A stretch of 38,501 nt of DNA. Source: Deltaproteobacteria bacterium (GTDB lineage Bacteria; Desulfobacterota; Syntrophia; Syntrophales; Smithellaceae). Positions 1,060 to 31,970 of the stretch are shown in pieces. A program made the position numbers and the translations under genes. The notes under the pieces are model-generated. The model saw only the letters and a program-made list of their open reading frames with translations. It was not told the DNA's origin and made no database searches. Every line of letters starts with the position of its first letter. The stretch's first letter is position 1. The DNA is taken from the NCBI GenBank assembly GCA_021372815.1, contig JAJFTS010000225.1, forward strand, positions 1-38,501, given 5' to 3'.

Positions 1060-1088
1060 TTGACAAAAAATACCTTTTATTTGATAAT
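1060..1088 (+). promoter_or_regulatory. Sigma-70-type promoter of the gap-pgk-tpiA operon
   Basis: A perfect -35 TTGACA (1060-1065) is followed after 17 bases by GATAAT (1083-1088), five of six matches to the -10 consensus. Transcription would start near 1095, leaving a leader of only about 16 bases that consists mainly of the ribosome binding site GGAGGGG at 1101-1107. Confidence 0.75.
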
Positions 1089-1110
1089 TTTTCAAATGAA
1101 GGAGGGGAAT

Positions 1111-2109
1111 ATGTCGATAAAAATTGCCATTAACGGTTTTGGAAGGATTGGACGGCTTGTTTTTCGGGCCGGATATAAAAGCAAAGATGTGGAGTTTGTG
1201 GCGATCAATGATCTGGCCGATACTAAAACACTTGCTCACCTGCTCAAATACGATTCGACGCACGGCACACTGGATGCGGAAGTCAAAACCGGCAGCAATT
1301 CCATCATTGTTGACGGAAAAGAAATAAAAACATTTTCCGTCAGGGAACCGGAAACATTGCCGTGGAAAGATCTGGGGATCGATGTTGTTTTGGAGAGCAC
1401 CGGAAAATTTACGGATAAAACGGGTGCCGGAAAACATATCGAAGCGGGCGCCAAAAAAGTTGTGGTCTCCGCACCGGCGAAAAATCCCGATGTCACCTTT
1501 GTTCTCGGCGTCAATCAGGAAGTTTACGACAAAACCAAGCACAACATTATTTCCATGGGGTCGTGCACCACAAACTGTCTGTCTCCGATTGTTAAAATAC
1601 TGCATCAGGAATTCGGCATTGAATACGGCCTGATGACAACGATTCATTCCTTTACCAACGATCAGGTTGTTTTGGATGAACCACACAAGGATTTAAGAAG
1701 AGCGCGGGCAGCGTCTCTTTCCATGATACCAACAACGACCGGCGCGGCCAGGGCGATCGCGGAAGTTATTCCGGAAATGAAAGGAAAACTGGACGGACTG
1801 GCCATTCGCGTGCCGACGCCGAATGTTTCCCTGGTTGATTTTGTGGCAACGCTCTCAAGGGCAACCAATAAAAATGAAATCAACGATAAATTTCGTGAAT
1901 ACGCCAAAGGGGCGATGAAAGGAATTCTCGCGTGTTCGGAAGAAGAACTTGTTTCCCGGGATTTCAACGGCAACAAACATTCTTCCATCGTGGATATGCC
2001 CAACACAACAGTCATCGGCGGCAATATGGTCAAGATTCTCTCCTGGTATGACAATGAATGGGGCTTTTCCAACAGAATGCTGGAACTGCTTTCTTTTATA
2101 ATGAAATAG
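1111..2109 (+). CDS. gap: Glyceraldehyde-3-phosphate dehydrogenase, NAD-type
   Basis: Cytosolic enzyme of lower glycolysis and gluconeogenesis: oxidises glyceraldehyde 3-phosphate to 1,3-bisphosphoglycerate with NAD+ and phosphate. The 332-residue product has the normal length. Visible hallmarks are the Rossmann motif NGFGRIGR (residues 8-15), Asp34 at the end of beta-2 (typical of NAD+ preference), the active-site SCTTNCL with Cys152, the base His179 in THSFTNDQ, and WYDNEWGFSNRM near the end. ATG 1111 is chosen because GGAGGGG lies 4-10 bases upstream; a longer frame from 1060 would overlap the promoter. It is first in an operon with pgk and tpiA. A second, divergent GAPDH lies at 10185. 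Confidence 0.97.
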   Translation: MSIKIAINGFGRIGRLVFRAGYKSKDVEFVAINDLADTKTLAHLLKYDSTHGTLDAEVKTGSNSIIVDGKEIKTFSVREPETLPWKDLGIDVVLESTGKFTDKTGAGKHIEAGAKKVVVSAPAKNPDVTFVLGVNQEVYDKTKHNIISMGSCTTNCLSPIVKILHQEFGIEYGLMTTIHSFTNDQVVLDEPHKDLRRARAASLSMIPTTTGAARAIAEVIPEMKGKLDGLAIRVPTPNVSLVDFVATLSRATNKNEINDKFREYAKGAMKGILACSEEELVSRDFNGNKHSSIVDMPNTTVIGGNMVKILSWYDNEWGFSNRMLELLSFIMK

Positions 2110-2129
2110 ATAAAGATAAGGATTGGATT

Positions 2130-3308
2130 ATGAAGTACATTGATCAAATAGACATGAAAGGCAAAAGAGTTTTCCTGCGGGTCGATTTTAATGTCCCGAT
2201 GGATAAGGAAGGAAATGTTACCGGCGATAAGCGCGTGCGGGCCAGCATCCCGACGATTAATTACGCGCTGGATAAGGGGGCTAAATTAATCATCGCCTCC
2301 CATCTCGGCAGACCGAAAGGCAAGAGAGTTGCCGAGATGTCGCTCAAGCCGGTGGTCAAGGTTCTGTCGGGCCTTCTGCAAAAAGACGTCACGTTTTTGG
2401 ATGATTGTGTAGGACCGGCGGTGGAGCAGGCGGTCGGCAAAATGAAAGAAGGGGAGATCATCCTTCTGGAAAATCTCCGGTTTCAACCGGGCGAAGACAA
2501 AAACGACGCGGAGTTTGCCAAACAACTGGCTGCGCTTTGCGACATTTACATTGACGATGCGTTTGCCGTCTCGCACCGTGCCGCGGCTTCCAATTCGGCC
2601 ATTACTGAATTTGTGCCGGTGTGCGCAGCGGGATTCCTGCTGAAGAATGAAGTCGAATATTTCAAAAAAGCCATGGTCAATCCAGCCAAGCCTCTGGCGG
2701 CGATCATCGGCGGAGCGAAGGTTTCCGATAAAATCGGCCTTCTGGAGAATCTCATCGAAAAAGTGGATAAAATCATTATCGGCGGCGGGATGGCCTTCAC
2801 CTTTTTGCGGGCGGCAGGTTATGAAACCGGTAAATCGCTTTGCGAGGAAGACATGTTGGATACGGCACGCAGGATTGTGGATAAAGCCAAGCAGAAAAAC
2901 GTGCAGTTTTTATTGCCGGTAGACGCCGTGGTTGCTCAGGCCGCCACGGCAGAAGCCGAGGCCAAGGTCTGCGGCGTAAAAGAAATTCCCAAAGAATGGA
3001 TCGGTCTGGATATCGGACCGGCCACCATTGCTTTGTTCAGTGATGCTTTGAAAGGCGTCAAGACGGTTATCTGGAACGGCCCCATGGGGATGTTCGAACT
3101 AGCGTCTTTCAGCAAGGGAACGTTTGAACTGGCGGGGGCCGTAGCCAATTGCGGAGCGCTTTCCATTATCGGCGGCGGCGATACGGACACGGCCATTAAA
3201 AAAGCAGGCCTGAGTTCAAAGATGTCTTATATTTCCACCGGCGGCGGCGCTTTTCTGGAATGGCTGGAAGGAAAGACCCTGCCCGGCATTGCCGCGCTGG
3301 AAAAATAA
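2130..3308 (+). CDS. pgk: Phosphoglycerate kinase
   Basis: Transfers phosphate between 1,3-bisphosphoglycerate and ADP, the ATP-forming step that follows GAPDH. The 392-residue product has family length. The N-terminal substrate-binding segment KGKRVFLRVDFNVPMD, the HLGRPKG motif, the hinge region DDAFAVSHR and the C-terminal nucleotide-binding IIGGGDTDTA are all visible. ATG 2130 lies 20 bases after the gap stop, with AAGGA upstream; an upstream in-frame start would overlap gap. Cotranscribed with gap and tpiA. Confidence 0.97.
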   Translation: MKYIDQIDMKGKRVFLRVDFNVPMDKEGNVTGDKRVRASIPTINYALDKGAKLIIASHLGRPKGKRVAEMSLKPVVKVLSGLLQKDVTFLDDCVGPAVEQAVGKMKEGEIILLENLRFQPGEDKNDAEFAKQLAALCDIYIDDAFAVSHRAAASNSAITEFVPVCAAGFLLKNEVEYFKKAMVNPAKPLAAIIGGAKVSDKIGLLENLIEKVDKIIIGGGMAFTFLRAAGYETGKSLCEEDMLDTARRIVDKAKQKNVQFLLPVDAVVAQAATAEAEAKVCGVKEIPKEWIGLDIGPATIALFSDALKGVKTVIWNGPMGMFELASFSKGTFELAGAVANCGALSIIGGGDTDTAIKKAGLSSKMSYISTGGGAFLEWLEGKTLPGIAALEK

Positions 3309-3325
3309 TATTGAGGTATTAAACC

Positions 3326-4084
3326 ATGAGAAAATGGATTGTAGCCGGCAACTGGAAAATGCACAACACCATTGCCGAATCAATCGCTCTGGCCAAAGCC
3401 ATTAAAGAAGGATCAGCCGGTATTCAGAGCGGAGCCATTGTTTTAGCTCCGCCTTTCACCGCTCTTTTCAGCGTCGGCGAAACAATAAAAGGCTCGAACT
3501 TATCACTGGCCGCGCAGAATATGCATTATGAAGACAAGGGAGCCTTTACGGGTGAAATTGCCCCGTCCATGCTCAAAGATACCGGATGCGCTTACGTAAT
3601 TCTCGGCCATTCGGAGCGTCGGAAGTATTTTCATGAACGGGATAATGACGTTAATCTGAAAGTCAAAAAAGCTCTGACCTCGGGGTTGATTCCCATCATG
3701 TGCGTGGGAGAGACCGACGAGGAAAGAGAGAAAGGTGTAACGCAGGATGTTGTCGGCAGACAGGTGCAGCAGGGTTTAAACGGCGTCGAAAAGATTGAAA
3801 ATGTCGTTATCGCCTATGAACCGGTCTGGGCGATCGGTACCGGAAAAGTCGCCACATCCGCGCAGGCGCAGGAAGTGCACGCCTTTATTCGCGGCCTCCT
3901 GAAAAATACCTTCGGCGGCAAAAAGGCTGATGATATTTGTATTCTCTACGGTGGAAGCGTTACCAAAGATAATGTCGGCGATTTGATCGCCATGAATGAT
4001 ATTGACGGCGCACTGGTCGGTGGAGCGTCTTTAAAAGCCGATGGATTTCTGGGAATCATCAAAGAAATTTCCGGAAGAAAATAA
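3326..4084 (+). CDS. tpiA: Triosephosphate isomerase
   Basis: Interconverts dihydroxyacetone phosphate and glyceraldehyde 3-phosphate. The 252-residue barrel protein has the catalytic residues in place: Lys11 in GNWKMH, His95 in LGHSERR and Glu165 in AYEPVWAIGTG, plus the phosphate-binding GGS and GGASL loops. It begins 17 bases after pgk and closes the gap-pgk-tpiA operon; a hairpin follows at 4110. Confidence 0.97.
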   Translation: MRKWIVAGNWKMHNTIAESIALAKAIKEGSAGIQSGAIVLAPPFTALFSVGETIKGSNLSLAAQNMHYEDKGAFTGEIAPSMLKDTGCAYVILGHSERRKYFHERDNDVNLKVKKALTSGLIPIMCVGETDEEREKGVTQDVVGRQVQQGLNGVEKIENVVIAYEPVWAIGTGKVATSAQAQEVHAFIRGLLKNTFGGKKADDICILYGGSVTKDNVGDLIAMNDIDGALVGGASLKADGFLGIIKEISGRK

Positions 4085-11514: not shown

Positions 11515-14500
11515 CTATTCGGATTCGCTTTCATGCTTCCCCATATAAACAGTGCCGCTCCAGCCGTCGATGCTGATAAAATCCCCCGATTTTATAATGT
11601 GTTCTTCGATGGTTGCGTACCCATCAGTCTCGTAAACCTTGAGCTTGCTGAAACCAACGACGCCGACCTTGTTGATCTGCGGAATAGTTACCGCGGCATG
11701 CGAAGTACTTCCGCCTTTGGCTGTAAGCAGTCCTTCAACCAGCAAAAGAACCCCGACGTCATCAGGAACGGTATCGGGGCGTACCAGAATGAGAGGCGTT
11801 TGGGGCTCCTCGCTGCGAAAACGCTTGATATCCGTTTCCGAATAAACCGCTCTGCCGCACAACGCGCCGCCGTTCACCCCAATGCCTGTTCCGAGAACGG
11901 ATGATTGTAATATTTTCGTATCCTTGAATCGTCTCCATTTTTGCGTCGTGATCTGGTTCATGTCGCGGGTCTGCAGAATATACAGCTTGTCCCTTGTCTG
12001 TCCTTCAAAGGTAAATTCGATTTCCTGATGATTGAAACCCTTTTCGTAAATCAGTATTTCGGAAATTCTCAACAACTCTTTGTAAATTTCAGGGAATTTC
12101 GCTTCCAGCGAAATCGTTGAATCCCTGTATTCCGTAATTCTTTGTTTTTCCGAAATAGGATATGTTTCCACCAGACCGGAGACGATGTCATCTCCCTGCA
12201 CGCCGAAAATAAAATCTCCGTAAAGGGTTACATCGGAAGAAGAGCTTTTCGGCTCCCGGGTGAAAATAACCCCTGACCCTGAATTTTCATCGAGATTTCC
12301 GAAGACCATCTTCTGGACAATGACGGCAGTTCCCCATTTATCGGAAAGATGCATTTGATGGCGGTAAATTTCCGCCTGTTCCGAATACCAGGAATCGAAG
12401 ACCTGCAAAATGGCATGCCGCAGCTGATCCAGCGGTTTATCTTTGAACTCAATGCCGTGGTCTATTAGTCCTTTCTTATAGGAAAGAGCGATTTGTTTCA
12501 TCTGCCCCGGTGGAAACTGAATCTTTCTTTCCACGCCGTATTTTTGCTTGAATTCATTGATGATCGCGTCGAAATAATTCCGGTCCATTCCCTGGAACAT
12601 GCCCCATGTCTGCAAGAACCGGCGATAAGAATCCCATGACGCCCATTTGAATTTTTCCTGCTCACTGAGATTTTCCGCGATTGCTTCATTGATGCCCACG
12701 TTCAAAAAGGATTTCATCATCCCCGGAAGAGAAACCGTGGCGCCGCTTCGAACCGACAGAAGCAATGGATTGCGCCGGTCGCCGAATTTACGGCCGGTTA
12801 TTTTTTCCAGCCGTCTGATTTCCTTGTTGACCCGGACAGCGAGATCATTAAAAATATATTTATAACCGTAAACCGCGTCATATCCTCTGAAAACTTCCGT
12901 GGTGATGATAAATCCCGGAGGCACGTTGAAGCCGAAGGAGATCAATTCTTTGAGGAAATATCCCTTGTTGCCGAGAAGGATCTGGTTATCCAGTTTTTTA
13001 TCTTTTTTGTAAAACGAGGAAACCGTCAATTCCGGGTTATAGGCCATCACAACTTTTAAAATCTGTTGATTGTCCTTGAATTTTTCCGATTCGGCATTGA
13101 GGGTTTTGATGACCGCGTTGACAAAATTATCCAGTACCTGAATACCGAAAGCCGAAGATATCAAACTTCGGATAAAATTTTCCGAGTGCTGATAAATTAA
13201 TTTTTCATTTTTTTTATGTCCTGATTTTGTATCGGTTTCAGCGTCCCGATGATATATCTGCCTGATGATGACGGAAAGATTGGCGCCGTGAACCTCTATG
13301 TAATTGTTGCGAATAATATCCTGAATATCCTTGGATATGAAACGGAAGATATCCACGTATTGTTCCAGGGAAAACTGCTTTATGGACAGGGCGTTCGTGA
13401 CGTACTTGATTTTCGACGCCAGTCCTTCCGTGGCAATTCCCTCCATTTCCAGAGCACTGACGTAAAGCCAGAGATATGTGTGTATTTTTTTAATTGTTTG
13501 CTTGGTAATGAATTTCAGATTGAATGACTGACCCATTTCTTCAAAAAGCATCGTAGCCAGGCTTTCCAGCCTCAGGGACAGACCAACCGCCTCGAACTTC
13601 TTTTCATAGTAGGTGCCATACATGGAAGGAATTCCTGCCGCAATATGCCTTTTATAATAAATGTTTTCATAAGACGGCGTTTTCTTCGGAGAAACAATTC
13701 GTTCCTTCAAGACGGATAAAAATTTCAGAATAATCGTAATGCTGCGGTAATAATTTTTGGTGTTCAAAGCACGTTTCAGCGATGTTATATCAGCTTTGGG
13801 AAAAGCATTGACCGTTTCCAGATCTTTCAGCAAATCGATAAACAGCGGATAATATTTTTTGTAAAGCAACTGGTACATACGGATCATGATTTTGATCCGT
13901 TCCTGATCTCTTTCATTAACGCCCCTGACGTGATTCAGTTCCCGGCAGACCTTTTCCTTATCCCAGTTGAGAAAGTTCAGAGGGGTATTATTGATTTTTG
14001 TGAAAAAATATCGAAAAGCTTTATGCATTCCGTCGAAATATTCTCCGGAATTCAGAACCTGCGCGTAAACTTCATCGGGAATATGCTCACGCAGAAAATT
14101 CTTATTGCCGGAGCTCCAGTATTGAAAAATATCCTCGATAAATTTGACCAGCAGACTGTTGCTCTCCACGTGTGATTGTTTTCGTAAAAAGTAAATCAGC
14201 TTGTCATCACGGAAGGAAAGCTCATCAACTTTGGTTGATATTTCCCTTAACTCGCCTTCCGCTCCTATTTCATTGAAATAGACGGGGAAAATCCTGAGAA
14301 GCTGTTTTATCAGATTGTACGCCGGGGCGATGTCGCTGTTAAGCAGGGTGGAAATATCTTTCTGGATAAGATCTGTGTCCCGGACAAAAACTCCACCCAT
14401 TTTTAAATTGATGATCAGCGCGGAAATCAATTTTTTTGTCCATCTCGGTTTCATTCCGATAATCTCCAGCCAGGAGCGGATATTGATGATATGAGCCGGA

Positions 14501-15732
14501 TTGACTTTAACCTGCCACTCTTCGGTTGATCCGCTAATTTCAGGATGCTGGAAACCGTAAGCGATCAACTCGTCAATAAACGTGTCCACAAGGGGATGAT
14601 TGTCCTGTGCAAAAACCTCTTTAGCCGTCGTTGTTATGCAATCAAAAATCGCCGTGCTGAATTCATACTGGGATTTGTTTTTTTTCAGGAAACCGAATAT
14701 TTTGCGTACAAAGTCGGGAAGACTTTCCTTCCTGGCTTCCTGGAAAACCATTTTCAAAGAATGATTGATTTCCCTGAGCGCGCTGGCGTGGATGTCGGCA
14801 AGACTGGGAATATCCATTACATTAAGCAGAAACCGAAGTTTTACGAGATGCTGTCGTCCCTGGTACGTTTCTGACTTTTCCAGTTGATCGGCGGTCAGCA
14901 AATACCCGTTTACGATCTGGAAATAATCGGGCAGATCAAGATAGAGTTTTATTCCGTCGTTGTTTTCTTTCTGTTTGTCCGGACAAAGATTTTCCAGCTT
15001 TTCAATGAGTACTTGCAGATATCCGTGGCTCAACGGCTGGATGAATTGCCTGTAGGTGTTAATGGATTCCTCGGTTTCTCCATCTCCCGTGATCAGCCAT
15101 TCGGACGGATCCGGCTGGGCAAGCCAGAACTGATAGGTGATTTTGAAAGTTTTATACGCTAAACTTTCAAACAGAGGAATCCGGATGTTCAGGTCTCTTT
15201 GGGTAATACTGTTAATGATTCTTTTCATGTAAAAAGAGCATTTCTTAAAGATAACCGGATATTGATCGACAAAATCGGTCAGCGACTGGGCGAACTCGGT
15301 AAAAAGATTCAGATTTCTCGGAAGAAATTCGTTACTCTGTGTGAGTATCGTATCCATATAGTCGAACAAATAATGTATCGCACTGTCTTTCACGTCATCG
15401 CTGGATGAAGATTCGATAACATCAAGATAAATGCGCAGCATAATGGAAAGAGCGGAGAGACCGTCCTGATGATTATTGTAGATGTAGAAGTCTCCGATGG
15501 AAACCGATTTCAATTCTTTCAGCACATATTCCCAGTTTACAAAGGGATGGTTTAATTCCGTCAGAAGTTCGCGGGTCTTTTTTTGCAGACCGTAGTGGTT
15601 CTGGGCAACTTTAAGCAATGGAGAATACTGATCCGGAATTTCTATGGCCACGGCCGTCCTCTCCAGATTTACTTTCAGAGCGGATGAGCCCAGTTCCTCG
15701 CTTTTTTTATTTGGATTATTTTTGTTTGCCAT
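11515..15732 (-). CDS. PPDK/PEP-synthase-like protein: long N-terminal region, ATP-grasp and phosphohistidine domain, no PEP barrel
   Basis: A 1405-residue protein. Residues 1 to about 910 are helix-rich with no motif I recognise. From about 915 it follows the nucleotide-binding half of pyruvate phosphate dikinase/PEP synthase: LLGNKGYFLKEL...VPPGF, SVRSGATVSLPGMM (about 987), GSGVIFTREP, and the IEFTFEG...LYILQTRDM end of the ATP-grasp. The swivelling phosphohistidine domain follows, with GLLTAKGGSTSHAAV and His1345. The protein stops 60 residues later, so the C-terminal PEP/pyruvate-binding barrel is absent. By analogy with glucan water dikinase and rifampin phosphotransferase it could autophosphorylate on His1345 and pass phosphate to another acceptor, perhaps bound by the N-terminal region. 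Acceptor unknown. Start codon ATG has AAAGGT upstream. Confidence 0.85.
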   Translation of the reverse strand: MANKNNPNKKSEELGSSALKVNLERTAVAIEIPDQYSPLLKVAQNHYGLQKKTRELLTELNHPFVNWEYVLKELKSVSIGDFYIYNNHQDGLSALSIMLRIYLDVIESSSSDDVKDSAIHYLFDYMDTILTQSNEFLPRNLNLFTEFAQSLTDFVDQYPVIFKKCSFYMKRIINSITQRDLNIRIPLFESLAYKTFKITYQFWLAQPDPSEWLITGDGETEESINTYRQFIQPLSHGYLQVLIEKLENLCPDKQKENNDGIKLYLDLPDYFQIVNGYLLTADQLEKSETYQGRQHLVKLRFLLNVMDIPSLADIHASALREINHSLKMVFQEARKESLPDFVRKIFGFLKKNKSQYEFSTAIFDCITTTAKEVFAQDNHPLVDTFIDELIAYGFQHPEISGSTEEWQVKVNPAHIINIRSWLEIIGMKPRWTKKLISALIINLKMGGVFVRDTDLIQKDISTLLNSDIAPAYNLIKQLLRIFPVYFNEIGAEGELREISTKVDELSFRDDKLIYFLRKQSHVESNSLLVKFIEDIFQYWSSGNKNFLREHIPDEVYAQVLNSGEYFDGMHKAFRYFFTKINNTPLNFLNWDKEKVCRELNHVRGVNERDQERIKIMIRMYQLLYKKYYPLFIDLLKDLETVNAFPKADITSLKRALNTKNYYRSITIILKFLSVLKERIVSPKKTPSYENIYYKRHIAAGIPSMYGTYYEKKFEAVGLSLRLESLATMLFEEMGQSFNLKFITKQTIKKIHTYLWLYVSALEMEGIATEGLASKIKYVTNALSIKQFSLEQYVDIFRFISKDIQDIIRNNYIEVHGANLSVIIRQIYHRDAETDTKSGHKKNEKLIYQHSENFIRSLISSAFGIQVLDNFVNAVIKTLNAESEKFKDNQQILKVVMAYNPELTVSSFYKKDKKLDNQILLGNKGYFLKELISFGFNVPPGFIITTEVFRGYDAVYGYKYIFNDLAVRVNKEIRRLEKITGRKFGDRRNPLLLSVRSGATVSLPGMMKSFLNVGINEAIAENLSEQEKFKWASWDSYRRFLQTWGMFQGMDRNYFDAIINEFKQKYGVERKIQFPPGQMKQIALSYKKGLIDHGIEFKDKPLDQLRHAILQVFDSWYSEQAEIYRHQMHLSDKWGTAVIVQKMVFGNLDENSGSGVIFTREPKSSSSDVTLYGDFIFGVQGDDIVSGLVETYPISEKQRITEYRDSTISLEAKFPEIYKELLRISEILIYEKGFNHQEIEFTFEGQTRDKLYILQTRDMNQITTQKWRRFKDTKILQSSVLGTGIGVNGGALCGRAVYSETDIKRFRSEEPQTPLILVRPDTVPDDVGVLLLVEGLLTAKGGSTSHAAVTIPQINKVGVVGFSKLKVYETDGYATIEEHIIKSGDFISIDGWSGTVYMGKHESESE

Positions 15733-20889: not shown

Positions 20890-22215
20890 TTATAAACCCA
20901 TTGCACCTGTATTTATATCAGGCCATAGAACTACTTCTTTGCACACTCTTTTTATGGCTTTTACGCCTCCATCTTGAGAGACGACAAAGATGACAGCTTC
21001 TTCAAAACTTGAACAAAATCTAAATGCAGACCTATGACGTGTACCAAATGATTCTATAGGAATCCTTTGAATAGTTTTAGATCTAACTTCTATTTTAACT
21101 TCTTTTAGAGAGGGTGAGATTGCTAAAACTTCTGCTCCAAAACCCAATACTTTCAATTTATCAGTTAGAACAACCGCCCCATCTACAGAAGTCATAGAAG
21201 CTATTGCCCGTGCAGCATCACCTATAGCTTCATCAAGATCATCTCTTTTACTTGATAGCATATGATATTCTTGGAAATTATTTTGGGTAATTTCTAATTT
21301 TGCGTCCCATAAAGGGAAATGAAGATCGAAATATTTACGTTCATTAACCAAACAACTCGTCATCATTTCCCAAGCATAATCATAAGAACAAGGGTATTTA
21401 AGATTTAAGCGGTCTGTCAATCGTGTATCATCTTTGCTTACGTAATCAGGCACAATTATTAAAGTGCCACCATGGGATTTTTCCCTTACATAAAATAAAA
21501 TTCTTTCTATGAAAAAATTGTAAAACCTATACGGGTAGTCATCATCTTGACCTTCTTCATCCCAAGATTTTGTACCTAATGCTGTGATAACAGATTGGTA
21601 TAATTTATTTCGTGCAGTTTGAAGAAAGTCACATATAGATCCATCCCATATGGCTGTGTCCTTAGGATAAACCAATTTACCGCCTTTAAGAGTTGTTAAT
21701 ACATCTCCTGCTGCTGAAATAGACAATTCCCCTGCATTCATACTGGTTATGGCGAAATAATTTGGAGGCGACATGCCGCTATGTGTTTCATTGTGGACAA
21801 ATTTCCACCAATTTTCACCTACATCCAGTAAACCCCAAATTTCAAGAGATGATTTTCTATTATTTTGTGAAGAATTTGATACGCAAATCATTAAATGAGT
21901 TAATTCTGCAGCGGGTGCGAGCCTATTTAATTCTGATACACTATACGGACGAGGAGTATCAAAATTAATAATTCGCCATCGATTATCGGAATGCTTATCT
22001 ATTTCTTTTATCATAGTCTCAAAAGACACATATAAAATTCGAAATCCCGTTCTACGACCTTCTTCGGTTAAGAAACTTGCATGAAATGCAGTATCCAATA
22101 GAACGTGAAGTTCTTCATCGGGTGGTAGGGTTGGAGGCTTCCCATACTTTCTTTTTTCTAATTTCGTGCAAACATTTTTTAAGGCTGGAATTATATCTTT
22201 GGGGTAAGCGTTCAT
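20890..22215 (-). CDS. Diadenylate-cyclase-like protein (DisA_N/DAC domain) with long N-terminal sensor-like region
   Basis: A 441-residue protein. The C-terminal part has the two signatures of DAC domains that make c-di-AMP from ATP: DGA (SVDGAVVL, Asp345) and RHR (FGTRHRSAF, His394), followed by AVIFVVSQDGG. The N-terminal 310 residues resemble the DACNV-type sensor regions found with such domains; I am less sure of that. ATG 22215 is chosen (AGGA five bases upstream) over a GTG at 22227 that touches the insertion element. The gene is visibly AT-richer than its neighbours, suggesting transfer. Its probable promoter now lies beyond the IS at 23507. No CBASS-type effector is next to it. Confidence 0.72.
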   Translation of the reverse strand: MNAYPKDIIPALKNVCTKLEKRKYGKPPTLPPDEELHVLLDTAFHASFLTEEGRRTGFRILYVSFETMIKEIDKHSDNRWRIINFDTPRPYSVSELNRLAPAAELTHLMICVSNSSQNNRKSSLEIWGLLDVGENWWKFVHNETHSGMSPPNYFAITSMNAGELSISAAGDVLTTLKGGKLVYPKDTAIWDGSICDFLQTARNKLYQSVITALGTKSWDEEGQDDDYPYRFYNFFIERILFYVREKSHGGTLIIVPDYVSKDDTRLTDRLNLKYPCSYDYAWEMMTSCLVNERKYFDLHFPLWDAKLEITQNNFQEYHMLSSKRDDLDEAIGDAARAIASMTSVDGAVVLTDKLKVLGFGAEVLAISPSLKEVKIEVRSKTIQRIPIESFGTRHRSAFRFCSSFEEAVIFVVSQDGGVKAIKRVCKEVVLWPDINTGAMGL

Positions 22216-22257
22216 ATTATTCCTCACTGATCTTCCCCCGAAAAAGTGGACACCCCA

Positions 22258-27353: not shown

Positions 27354-28397
27354 TTATGCGACAGTATTAAAATAGGGCTGGAGCTCCCGGCACAATTCTT
27401 CCGGAACAGTCGGACAAATAATTTCATTGTGCAGCTTTTCAAAATAGTTCAAATCGCTGGTTCCCAGCGGATAAATCACAAAGCGGGGAACGATTTTCCC
27501 CTGAACAAAAAAATAATTATTGTTGGTCATGGTGGCGTAGAACGACATGTTAAAACTGATAAAATTATTCACATAAAGATAGTTGAATACTTTGGACAGC
27601 CCCGTCAGGAATTCATTGAAATTTGATTCCGTTAAATCAAACAGAGATGTCTTCTCCCGGAAAATAAAGTCTATTTCGCCGGCCATGCCCTTCGGCGCAA
27701 AACTGGTCAGCCAGCAGACAACGCCTGTATTGGCGATAAACCTTTTATCCGCTTTCTTCTCCAAAGCGATTAAATTATTCCACAGGTTGTCTCCGTTGGA
27801 GGCTGCGGCGTAATTATGGGCGCTGGTCAGGAGCTTTTGCATAAAGCTGGTGGGTTTATATCCGGCAATTGTCTGCAAGTGCGGATGAATCATGCCGCCG
27901 CCGGCGGGCGGCATATAGTTCCAGTTGATCGAGCAATACTTGTAACCGAGATTCATTTCGACAACACGGTGGAAATAATCGCGGCATACGGCAAAACCGT
28001 CATGCATAAATTCCGGAGTCAATTCATTCAAAGGGACAAAATGACGCGATGAAAAAATCGCCACATTGTTGTTCTGATCATAAGGAAAGGCATTGGGGAA
28101 AAGACAGGCCTCTCCCCGCTTGAAATTACCTTCTTCAACGATATCGGGTGTAAACCGGGGGGTCGTTTTTTCAAAGAGATCCGGACAGAAAGGACACAGG
28201 GACTCCGGCGATTTTTCCAGATAAAAATCCATATCCGGCTTCTGGGTAATACGCATGCGATAAGGCAAAATACGGCACGCCACACCGGTGATTTCATCAT
28301 AACGCGATTCGATAGTGATTTTCTTTTCCTGATAGCCGCTGAAAGGATCAAGATAATATCCGGTTGAGATTTCTTTTTTAAATCCGAGGTCCCTCAT
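27354..28397 (-). CDS. GalT-like nucleotidyltransferase (HIT superfamily)
   Basis: A 347-residue member of the galactose-1-phosphate uridylyltransferase/ADP-glucose phosphorylase type. It has a CPFC zinc-knuckle near residue 68, a SINWNYMPPAGGGMIHPHLQ segment with His171-Pro-His173-Leu-Gln175 as the nucleotidyl-accepting HxHxQ site, and a matching C-terminal half. Which sugar phosphate and nucleotide it uses cannot be told. It ends a minus-strand operon, 26 bases after the DHH phosphoesterase, with AAGGAAGGA before ATG. Confidence 0.78.
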   Translation of the reverse strand: MRDLGFKKEISTGYYLDPFSGYQEKKITIESRYDEITGVACRILPYRMRITQKPDMDFYLEKSPESLCPFCPDLFEKTTPRFTPDIVEEGNFKRGEACLFPNAFPYDQNNNVAIFSSRHFVPLNELTPEFMHDGFAVCRDYFHRVVEMNLGYKYCSINWNYMPPAGGGMIHPHLQTIAGYKPTSFMQKLLTSAHNYAAASNGDNLWNNLIALEKKADKRFIANTGVVCWLTSFAPKGMAGEIDFIFREKTSLFDLTESNFNEFLTGLSKVFNYLYVNNFISFNMSFYATMTNNNYFFVQGKIVPRFVIYPLGTSDLNYFEKLHNEIICPTVPEELCRELQPYFNTVA

Positions 28398-29503: not shown

Positions 29504-30556
29504 TTAGTAAACAAAAATTTTACCGGCATTTTCTTTGACAACTTCTCCGACAACCGCGGCATCGGCAATGCCCGCAGCGCGCATTGCCTCTACAAGTTTT
29601 TGCGCCTTGCCGGCGGGTAAACTGAAAAATAATCCTCCCGCCGTCTGCGGATCAAAAAGCACATCAAAAAGCCAATCCGGGCACGTCGGCTTTTTTTCGA
29701 CCTGATTCAGGCGAAAATTTTTATTGCGATAAAGACCGCCGGGAACAAAGCCTGTTTCCATCAAGTCACGCACGCCTTCAAAAACAGGCACTGCCGCGGA
29801 ATCGATGCGCAGGCCGACATCGCCTCCTTCGATCATTTCGCAGGCGTGTCCTAAAAAACCGAAGCCGGTGATATCGGTGCAGGCATGAACATCTTCTTCG
29901 GCAATCATCATTTCCGACGCTTTTTTGTTCAGAGCGCTCATGGAGTTGATGACGTTCTCCATCTGTTTTTCCGATGCTTCTCCGGCCTTGATCGCGGTGC
30001 TGATAATGCCTGTCCCCAGAGCTTTTGTCAAAACTAATTTGTCGCCGGCCCGGGCGCCGCGATTAAATAAAACTTTGTCCGGATGAACGATGCCGGTCAC
30101 GGAAAGGCCGTACTTGATTTCATTGTCTTCAACGCTGTGTCCGCCGACCAGCAAAACGCCGGCCTCGCGCATTTTATCCAATCCGCCATGCAGAACTTTC
30201 CGCAGCACGGAAATATCCATTGTTTTGATCGGGAAACAAACAATGTTCATGGCGGTTAAAGGTTTTGCCCCCATCGCGTAAATATCGTTGAGCGCATTGG
30301 CGGCGGCAATCTGGCCGAACACAAACGGATCATCAACCGTAGGAGTGAAAAAATCAACCGTCTGGACAATGGCGAGATCGGCGGAAATTTTATACACTCC
30401 CGCGTCTTCCGCATGCTCGAATCCGGTCAGCAAATTCGGATCCTGAACAAGCGGCAAATCGCGCATGATTTCGGACAGGTCGCCCGGACCTATCTTGCAG
30501 GCTCAACCCGCGCTTTGTACGGTTTGTGTTAAACGAACAGTTTTTTTCTCGTCCAT
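29504..30556 (-). CDS. selD: Selenide, water dikinase, a selenoprotein with Sec18 at an in-frame UGA
   Basis: Makes selenophosphate from selenide and ATP, the selenium donor for Sec-tRNA. A naive frame starts at ATG 30466, but that omits the essential N-terminus. Reading upstream from ATG 30556 (AGAGGG ribosome site) gives MDEKKTVRLTQTVQSAG, then TGA at 30505-30503, then ACKIGPGDLSEI and straight into the rest. This is the SelD active-site signature with Sec at position 18 and the catalytic Lys21. With it the protein is 350 residues, normal length. DFFTPTVDDP, GGHSVEDNEIKYG and TDITGFGFLGH are also visible. First of a selD-DHH-GalT group. Confidence 0.95.
30477..30505 (-). promoter_or_regulatory. 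Candidate bacterial SECIS element of selD
   Basis: The Sec codon TGA (30505-30503) is followed after 11 bases by a hairpin AGGTC (30491-30487) / GACCT (30481-30477) with the loop CGGGC. Position and G-rich loop suit a bacterial SECIS recognised by SelB. Confidence 0.65.
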
Positions 30557-30709
30557 TTTCCCTCTTTAAATTTTTCGCAAATGCTTTTTTTGAAACGAAA
30601 AACCAGTTAATCGATTATAAGGACAACCTTTTTGTCTGTCAATGTAATGTTTGGTGTAAAGGAGCGGGAAGAAGATGTTTCCGTTTCTTCTTTCACTCTT
30701 CGCCATCCA

Positions 30710-31924
30710 CTATTCGTATCTTTTAAGCTCAAAAAGCTTTTTGTCCTGTGTGGAAACAATGTGATAAAAACGATCTTGGGGAACATAAATATAAGGAACA
30801 TCGTCTTCCCGCCGGTATAAAAAATGAGAAAGAATCATCCTGTTGACCGCCTGATGACCGACGATCATAATATTTTTGGCGCGTCGGTTTAAAAAAAATG
30901 CTTTCTTGATTCCCTGTGTTATGCGCGGTTTCATGGTTTCATAACTTTCGCCTTCAGGGTAAACATAGTGATATTTGTCCGCTCCTCTTTTTTTAAAAAC
31001 ATGCGGCAGTTTTCTTTCGATGTCTTCATAAGTCATTTTTTCGCAAATTCCCGCGTTGATCTCATTAAATTCCTTAAGGGATATTATCCGGCAGTCGTCC
31101 TGCATGTCGCAAATAGCACGCGCCGTGTCCATGGTTCTGCTTTTTTCGCTGGTAAAAATGTAGGAAATCTTTTTCTTTTTAAAGAACAGACCCAGGGCGA
31201 CAGCCTGCGCACGGCCTTTGGGGGTTAATTTTGAGTTGCCGCCGATCCGGTTAGCGACGTTATATTCCGTTTCGGTGTGCCGGATGAGAAAAAGGTTTTT
31301 TACTTCATCCGTGACAATATAATCGCGCAATCTTTCGTAAAAAGGAATCACGTCGCTGTGTTTTTCCTCGATGATCATGTTTTGCAGTGAATCAATGCGC
31401 AGATAATTCCGTTCCGGCTTTAAAGGTTCATAAATCATTTTGTAGTAATCAATACGTTTTAGAAATTCCTTTGCCGCCCTGTCTTTTAAATGAGCAAACT
31501 CCGGCAGATTAATTTTTTCCTGAATGCTCAGGTGCAGAATATCTTCATCATCGTTGATGCATTCGATAAAAAGAAGAGGATGATCGTTAAGATGTTTTTC
31601 GATTGCCGCGCGCCGCGCCCTGCGGGCATTGGTCGCGTCCAGAATCGCGACCCGGCCGTTGCTGCGCAAATAGGTCTTGGCTCTTTCCATATTCAGGCGG
31701 GCGAATCCCTCGCGCAAAGCAACGGCGGCGTTGTTTTCCGGCGAATAAAAATCGGAATTTGCCGTTTCATCCAGGGGGCGGTAAAGTCTGCGCAAATTTC
31801 CATTATTAAATATCCGGGAGGCAATGCCGCTTTTCTGAAAGGCGTCACGCAGACGTACAGCGAGGGTTGATTTGCCCCGGGCGGGTAGTCCCATCAAAAC
31901 AATATATAATTTTTCATCGCTCAT
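30710..31924 (-). CDS. Bifunctional 6-phosphofructo-2-kinase/fructose-2,6-bisphosphatase-like protein
   Basis: A 404-residue two-domain protein laid out like the eukaryotic PFKFB enzymes. Residues 1 to about 210 are a kinase domain with P-loop GLPARGKST (12-20) and LDATNARRARR. Residues 212-404 are a histidine-phosphatase domain: LIRHTETEYN with His216 (Thr replaces the usual Gly of RHG), EINAGICEKMTYEDIE with the acid residue, YPEGESYETM, and GHQAVNR with the second His. PFKFB enzymes make and destroy fructose 2,6-bisphosphate, the hexose-flux signal. Such regulation is unusual in bacteria, so the substrate is inferred. It follows the acyl-ACP-reductase-like gene by 46 bases. Confidence 0.82.
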   Translation of the reverse strand: MSDEKLYIVLMGLPARGKSTLAVRLRDAFQKSGIASRIFNNGNLRRLYRPLDETANSDFYSPENNAAVALREGFARLNMERAKTYLRSNGRVAILDATNARRARRAAIEKHLNDHPLLFIECINDDEDILHLSIQEKINLPEFAHLKDRAAKEFLKRIDYYKMIYEPLKPERNYLRIDSLQNMIIEEKHSDVIPFYERLRDYIVTDEVKNLFLIRHTETEYNVANRIGGNSKLTPKGRAQAVALGLFFKKKKISYIFTSEKSRTMDTARAICDMQDDCRIISLKEFNEINAGICEKMTYEDIERKLPHVFKKRGADKYHYVYPEGESYETMKPRITQGIKKAFFLNRRAKNIMIVGHQAVNRMILSHFLYRREDDVPYIYVPQDRFYHIVSTQDKKLFELKRYE

Positions 31925-31970
31925 CTATTATGACTCCATGGATCATTTATCTTGCGCAAGCAATATTTGC

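Follow-up and report, generated by a model that had tools for sequence, protein, structure and literature searches.

A predicted fructose-2,6-bisphosphate synthase/phosphatase of the PFKFB family in a Smithellaceae genome and its bacterial relatives

PFK-2/FBPase-2 (PFKFB) of animals and plants is a two-headed enzyme, which both forms and breaks down the fructose 2,6-bisphosphate signal. According to an excerpt of a 2026 preprint (PMC12873801) that cites Michels and Rigden 2006, regulation of phosphofructokinase (PFK) by fructose 2,6-bisphosphate "appears to be a eukaryote-specific mechanism", and an excerpt of a 2022 paper (PMC9721465), citing the Rider et al. 2004 review, names Desulfovibrio desulfuricans as the bacterial exception, in which PFK-2/FBPase-2 or its product, fructose 2,6-bisphosphate, is reported to occur. 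No characterised bacterial PFKFB was found in the literature searched, whose coverage leaves out most subscription journals. The novelty of the enzyme described here is limited, since an exception in Desulfovibrio has been published before; its added interest lies in its breadth in the phylum (which D. desulfuricans presumably shares with the organism studied here) and in the questions of target and origin.

Domain order and homology of the PFKFB-like protein

The window (the whole stretch of 38,501 nucleotides that was analysed) carries on its minus strand a gene of 404 codons for amino acids (30710..31924, ATG at 31924), exactly where the sequence-only reading had placed it, with a Shine-Dalgarno-like GGAG (31934..31937, minus) 9 nt 5' of the ATG. 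The motifs picked out in that reading (GLPARGKST, RHT, EINAGICEKMTYEDIE, YPEGESYETM, and GHQAVNR) are all present in the translation. The gene is intact, and the organism is an anaerobe of the Smithella group, the nearest named records being from Smithella sp. and Syntrophaceae MAGs, with 80-85% identity. The domains follow each other in one chain in the order found in PFKFB: a 6PF2K kinase domain (residues 2-173; 31406..31921, minus; Pfam PF01591, E 1.9e-35), then a histidine phosphatase (FBPase-2) domain (residues 211-395; 30740..31294, minus; PF00300, His_Phos_1, E 7.4e-36). The kinase half includes the P-loop GLPARGKS (residues 12-19; 31868..31891, minus), and the phosphatase half the RHT motif (residues 215-217; 31274..31282, minus) with the catalytic His216. 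In the latter half, Glu288 (31061..31063, minus) is presumably the expected general acid and His357 (30854..30856, minus) is what we take to be the second catalytic histidine.

The resemblance far exceeds what chance would give: human PFKFB2 (5htk) is colinear with the window protein over residues 4-388 (E 8.3e-60), and all the 12 PDB sequences with E <1e-50 are mammalian PFKFB enzymes, aligned almost end to end. Mammalian PFKFB1-4 (5htk, 1k6m, 1bif, 2axn) have in common with the window protein the domain order, the end-to-end alignment and the kinase pocket and phosphatase residues; however, identity is 33-36% (33% to PFKFB2 in the family alignment), the N- or C-terminal regulatory extension of the mammalian enzymes is missing, and Asn stands for Cys154 and Thr for the Gly after the catalytic His. 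A structure predicted from an 11-row alignment was of modest quality (pLDDT 62.8, pTM 0.47, weak linker). Its 26 best fold matches in the PDB all belong to PFKFB (E 4e-23 to 6e-21). The rmsd over the whole chain is about 16, owing to the poorly modelled linker; against the bisphosphatase domain alone (1tip) the rmsd is 3.1 and the TM-score 0.83 by target length.

We are fairly confident that the window protein is a genuine bacterial PFKFB member acting on fructose 6-phosphate and fructose 2,6-bisphosphate, very probably a fructose-2,6-bisphosphate synthase/phosphatase. Both activities are deduced from homology and residues. The N-terminal kinase would phosphorylate fructose 6-phosphate at C2, using the gamma-phosphate of ATP, the C-terminal phosphatase would remove the C2 phosphate through a phospho-His216 intermediate, and the two halves would jointly set the fructose 2,6-bisphosphate level.

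Active-site residues and control proteins

The functional positions, numbered as in PFKFB3, were followed in an alignment of three mammalian PFKFB cores and 63 distinct bacterial proteins, the window protein included, drawn from 91 full-length ORFs after the removal of duplicates and of two partial sequences. The whole phosphatase list (catalytic residues and fructose 2,6-bisphosphate/6-phosphate contacts) consists of residues that we take to be functional, as we do Lys47, Asn127, Cys154, and Lys168 of the kinase. The kinase pocket list comes from an excerpt of PMC3177832, in which Arg74, Arg75, Arg98, Asp124, Thr126, Arg132, Arg189, and Tyr193 belong to the fructose-6-phosphate pocket of PFKFB3. 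Of the 27 functional positions, 20 do not vary among the 63 bacterial proteins. The window protein has the PFKFB2 residue at 24 of the 27; it departs by Ser for Thr48, Asn for Cys154, and Thr for Gly253, the last being the sole exception among the 14 phosphatase positions. A kinase domain devoid of fructose-6-phosphate contacts, which the sequence-only reading had named as the outcome that would speak against it, was not found: all eight PFKFB3 pocket residues listed above are kept, among them Asp96 (31637..31639, minus), the equivalent of PFKFB3 Asp124 named in the PMC3177832 excerpt and invariant in 63/63.

Variation among the 63 proteins is confined to a few positions: 48 (61 Ser, two Thr), 126 (54 Thr, five Ser, three Asn, one Ala), 127 (62 Asn, one His), 154 (61 Asn, one Thr, one Cys), 253, the third residue of the RH motif (37 Gly, 24 Thr, two Ala), 332 (60 Tyr, three Pro), and 387 (36 Arg, 27 Gln). 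The replacement of Gly by Thr in RHG, correctly noted from the sequence alone, is a lineage trait, found in 24/63 proteins that retain the catalytic residues. One half of the enzyme might nevertheless be inactive or strongly damped, and Thr217 of RHT might slow the phosphatase; in yeast isoforms one of the two activities has been lost (excerpt of PMC9721465), and RHT in 24/63 and RHA in 2/63 proteins would fit such damping. We consider this unlikely, as the catalytic residues of both halves (Lys18 of the P-loop, Arg and His of the RH motif, Glu288, and His357 included) are invariant in 63/63 and both halves are full-length across families. Still less likely is a protein of the same fold and chemistry with another ketose phosphate as substrate, hence a different sugar-bisphosphate signal. 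An identity of 33% leaves room for it, Thr126 varies in 9/63 proteins and Gln387 is Arg in 36/63, but the window protein has every fructose-6-phosphate pocket residue given in the PMC3177832 excerpt except for Ser in place of Thr48.

The specificity of these residues was gauged with two sets of controls: ten histidine phosphatases from the phylum that have this single domain, and five P-loop kinases, each about 200 aa long, with weak 6PF2K matches. Single-domain histidine phosphatases (CobC, PspA, GpmB, PhoE) share the fold and the catalytic Arg/His/Arg/Glu/His with the C-terminal half of the window protein but, unlike it, have no kinase domain. Arg251, His252, Arg301, Glu321, and His386, the catalytic set, occur in 10/10 of the controls, whereas Gly264, Lys350, Tyr361, and Gln387 occur in none of the ten, Arg346 in one, Tyr332 in two, and Arg391 in three, so that the complete sugar-bisphosphate residue set was found in 0/10. 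No NCBIfam equivalog cut-off was reached by the window protein; the best match, alpha-ribazole phosphatase, scored 94 bits against a cut-off of 162.9, and a histidine phosphatase of the CobC/PspA/GpmB type was rejected.

Lys47, Arg74, Arg98, Asp124, and Thr126 are found in 5/5 control P-loop kinases. In these, Arg132 is replaced by Leu and Lys168 by Arg, and the alignment shows no counterpart of Arg189 or Tyr193. One part of the kinase pocket is therefore a common property of P-loop kinases, the discriminating part being specific. A polynucleotide-end kinase/phosphatase, or a fusion of a phosphatase with some other general P-loop kinase, could draw on the match to AAA_33, a general P-loop family (5.7e-07), and on Arg74, Arg98, Asp124, and Thr126 being common to the five controls. 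This reading is barely credible given the far stronger 6PF2K match (1.9e-35) and the presence in the window protein of Arg132, Lys168, Arg189, and Tyr193, which the five control kinases do not keep; a general, polynucleotide-kinase-like P-loop kinase was accordingly rejected. Full-length homology, complete residue sets and the controls together support the proposal of a bacterial fructose-2,6-bisphosphate enzyme as first read from the sequence, and all the sequence features examined agree with a place in the PFKFB family.

Spread, selection and origin

A 6PF2K match with E <1e-29 identified 58 carriers of the PFKFB gene among 395 genomes drawn from the phylum; the larger totals of 63 (over the cut-off) and 111 (E up to 0.001) also take in other P-loop proteins with weak matches, which were left out of the 58. 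The system had been called rare in bacteria; within this phylum, to which the search was directed, it is common. All listed genomes of families f35 (6), f52 (12), f53 (5), f69 (9), and f84 (2) are carriers, as are 13/16 in f60 and 7/8 in the window's own family f1, these denominators being possibly low as 25 genomes without PFK were left out. Among 60 relatives that were drawn separately, a full-length copy was present in 24/36 genomes of the window's family and in 1/24 of the other families of the order.

The gene is under strongly purifying selection, as judged by a dN/dS of 0.03-0.07 in the seven pairs, out of nine, that gave a value; the ratios are rough because dS is saturated (1.7-3.5). 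In the tree the 14 family f1 proteins form one clade (support 99.2/100), which joins 10 of the 12 f52 proteins (100/100). As f52 is not part of the window's order, whose remaining families are mostly without the gene, it is likely that the gene has passed from one bacterial family to another. Eukaryotes were represented by mammals only, the root was placed on mammals and L022, and the deep supports are weak (69/78). L022 (family f78), 38% identical to PFKFB2 and with Cys154 kept, stands apart from the other 62 bacterial proteins in this tree. Together with L101 it makes up a second bacterial PFKFB branch (genome G408), 38-39% identical to the mammalian enzymes and with Cys154 retained, which occurs in 1/7 listed genomes of its family.

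Recent transfer from a eukaryote, or contamination, was rejected: full-length copies are present in 13/17 genomes of the genus and 6/6 of a neighbouring genus, and the G+C content is 0.441 compared to 0.462 for the window. A mobile or phage origin was rejected likewise, as no plasmid or phage sequence could be aligned along 80% of the query, matches being confined to the phosphatase half, and viral contigs gave no match to the PFKFB query.

Gene neighbourhood and candidate targets of the predicted signal

In Smithella the same genes recur downstream of the PFKFB gene, namely selD and those of a DHH protein and a GalT-like protein. In the window, a 347-aa protein (27354-28397, minus) that matched nothing in Pfam or NCBIfam at E 0.01 has CPFCP and HPHLQ stretches, which to us recall GalT-type nucleotidyltransferases. 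The selD gene (29504-30556, minus) extends beyond its ATG-to-stop ORF. It contains an in-frame TGA (30503-30505) in QSAG(U)ACK, at the position that is normally catalytic in SelD, which fits selenocysteine; SelD is therefore probably itself a selenoprotein. Between the PFKFB gene and selD lies a perfect TTGACA-17-TATAAT (30614-30642, minus; 12/12, sigma-70-like), which speaks against strict co-transcription with selD, although the scan found in total no more such sites than in shuffled sequences.

Farther away, the genes of GAPDH, PGK and triosephosphate isomerase stand in a row (1060-4084, plus), about 27 kb from the PFKFB gene. A 1405-aa protein (11515-15732, minus) has PPDK_N and PEP-utilizer domains in its last third only, its first 960 residues having no Pfam match, and a 445-aa protein (20890-22227, minus), which has a DACNV sensor domain and matches a DisA-type DAC weakly, short of the cut-off, is possibly a cyclase of the cyclic di-AMP type. 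As the neighbours of the PFKFB gene change across families, the context points to no function except for the fructose-1,6-bisphosphatase (FBPase) linkage in two families. In these (f53 and f69), only a few genes separate an FBPase gene from that of PFKFB, as seen in 7/46 stretches; by coordinates the linkage extends to eight genomes with G381 added, and it probably reflects a single arrangement inherited by both of these related families.

Class I FBPase is our main candidate for the target, a tentative choice to which we would give somewhat less than an even chance. Fructose 2,6-bisphosphate acting on it would put a brake on gluconeogenesis, PFK being the second candidate. Class I FBPase (PF00316) was found in 40/40 carriers versus 26/40 non-carriers, the latter hand-chosen and mostly at least 94% complete; the association by genome (Fisher 3.1e-5) is inflated by relatedness, and by family it amounts to 10/10 versus 15/27 (Fisher 0.015). 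The GlpX-type FBPase was rejected as a partner, occurring in 5/40 carriers and 5/40 non-carriers. Within class I, the FBPase of Smithella is divergent: the RY, YP, and GKLRLL stretches are present, but the NEG stretch of E. coli Fbp is missing.

With the enzyme unchanged, its signal could instead act mainly on PFK, of the ATP or the PPi type, as happens in animals and plants, an alternative that we find possible though doubtful. A PF00365 PFK is present in 56/57 carriers, and the genome of the window encodes a 379-aa PFK with GGEDT/PKTIDGDL and a 439-aa PFK with GGDGT/PKTIDNDL, which, by a residue rule that we assume to hold, are PPi-like and ATP-like, respectively; plant PPi-PFK is activated by fructose 2,6-bisphosphate (excerpt of PMC12965863). 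Against this, the PFK type varies from carrier to carrier, the 95% complete carrier G017 is without any PFK match, and PFK occurs in most genomes of the phylum anyway (350/395). Given the association and linkage of FBPase, as opposed to the variable PFK type and a carrier without PFK, we rank FBPase first and PFK second, neither of them firmly.

A more far-reaching proposal, which we rate as rather improbable as a whole, is that of an old, self-standing fructose 2,6-bisphosphate circuit in a large part of the phylum, with class I FBPase (as a gluconeogenesis brake) and not PFK as the main target, and with a bacterial family of at least two branches that may stand near the source of eukaryotic PFKFB and not have been borrowed from it. 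The presence of the family, with complete active sites, throughout the listed genomes of several bacterial families makes the claim of a eukaryote-specific mechanism directly testable in bacteria, and bears on the source of the eukaryotic enzyme. If such control is real, it would provide syntrophs and related bacteria, which have to be sparing with gluconeogenesis on poor substrates, with a dedicated switch that textbook bacteria supposedly lack.
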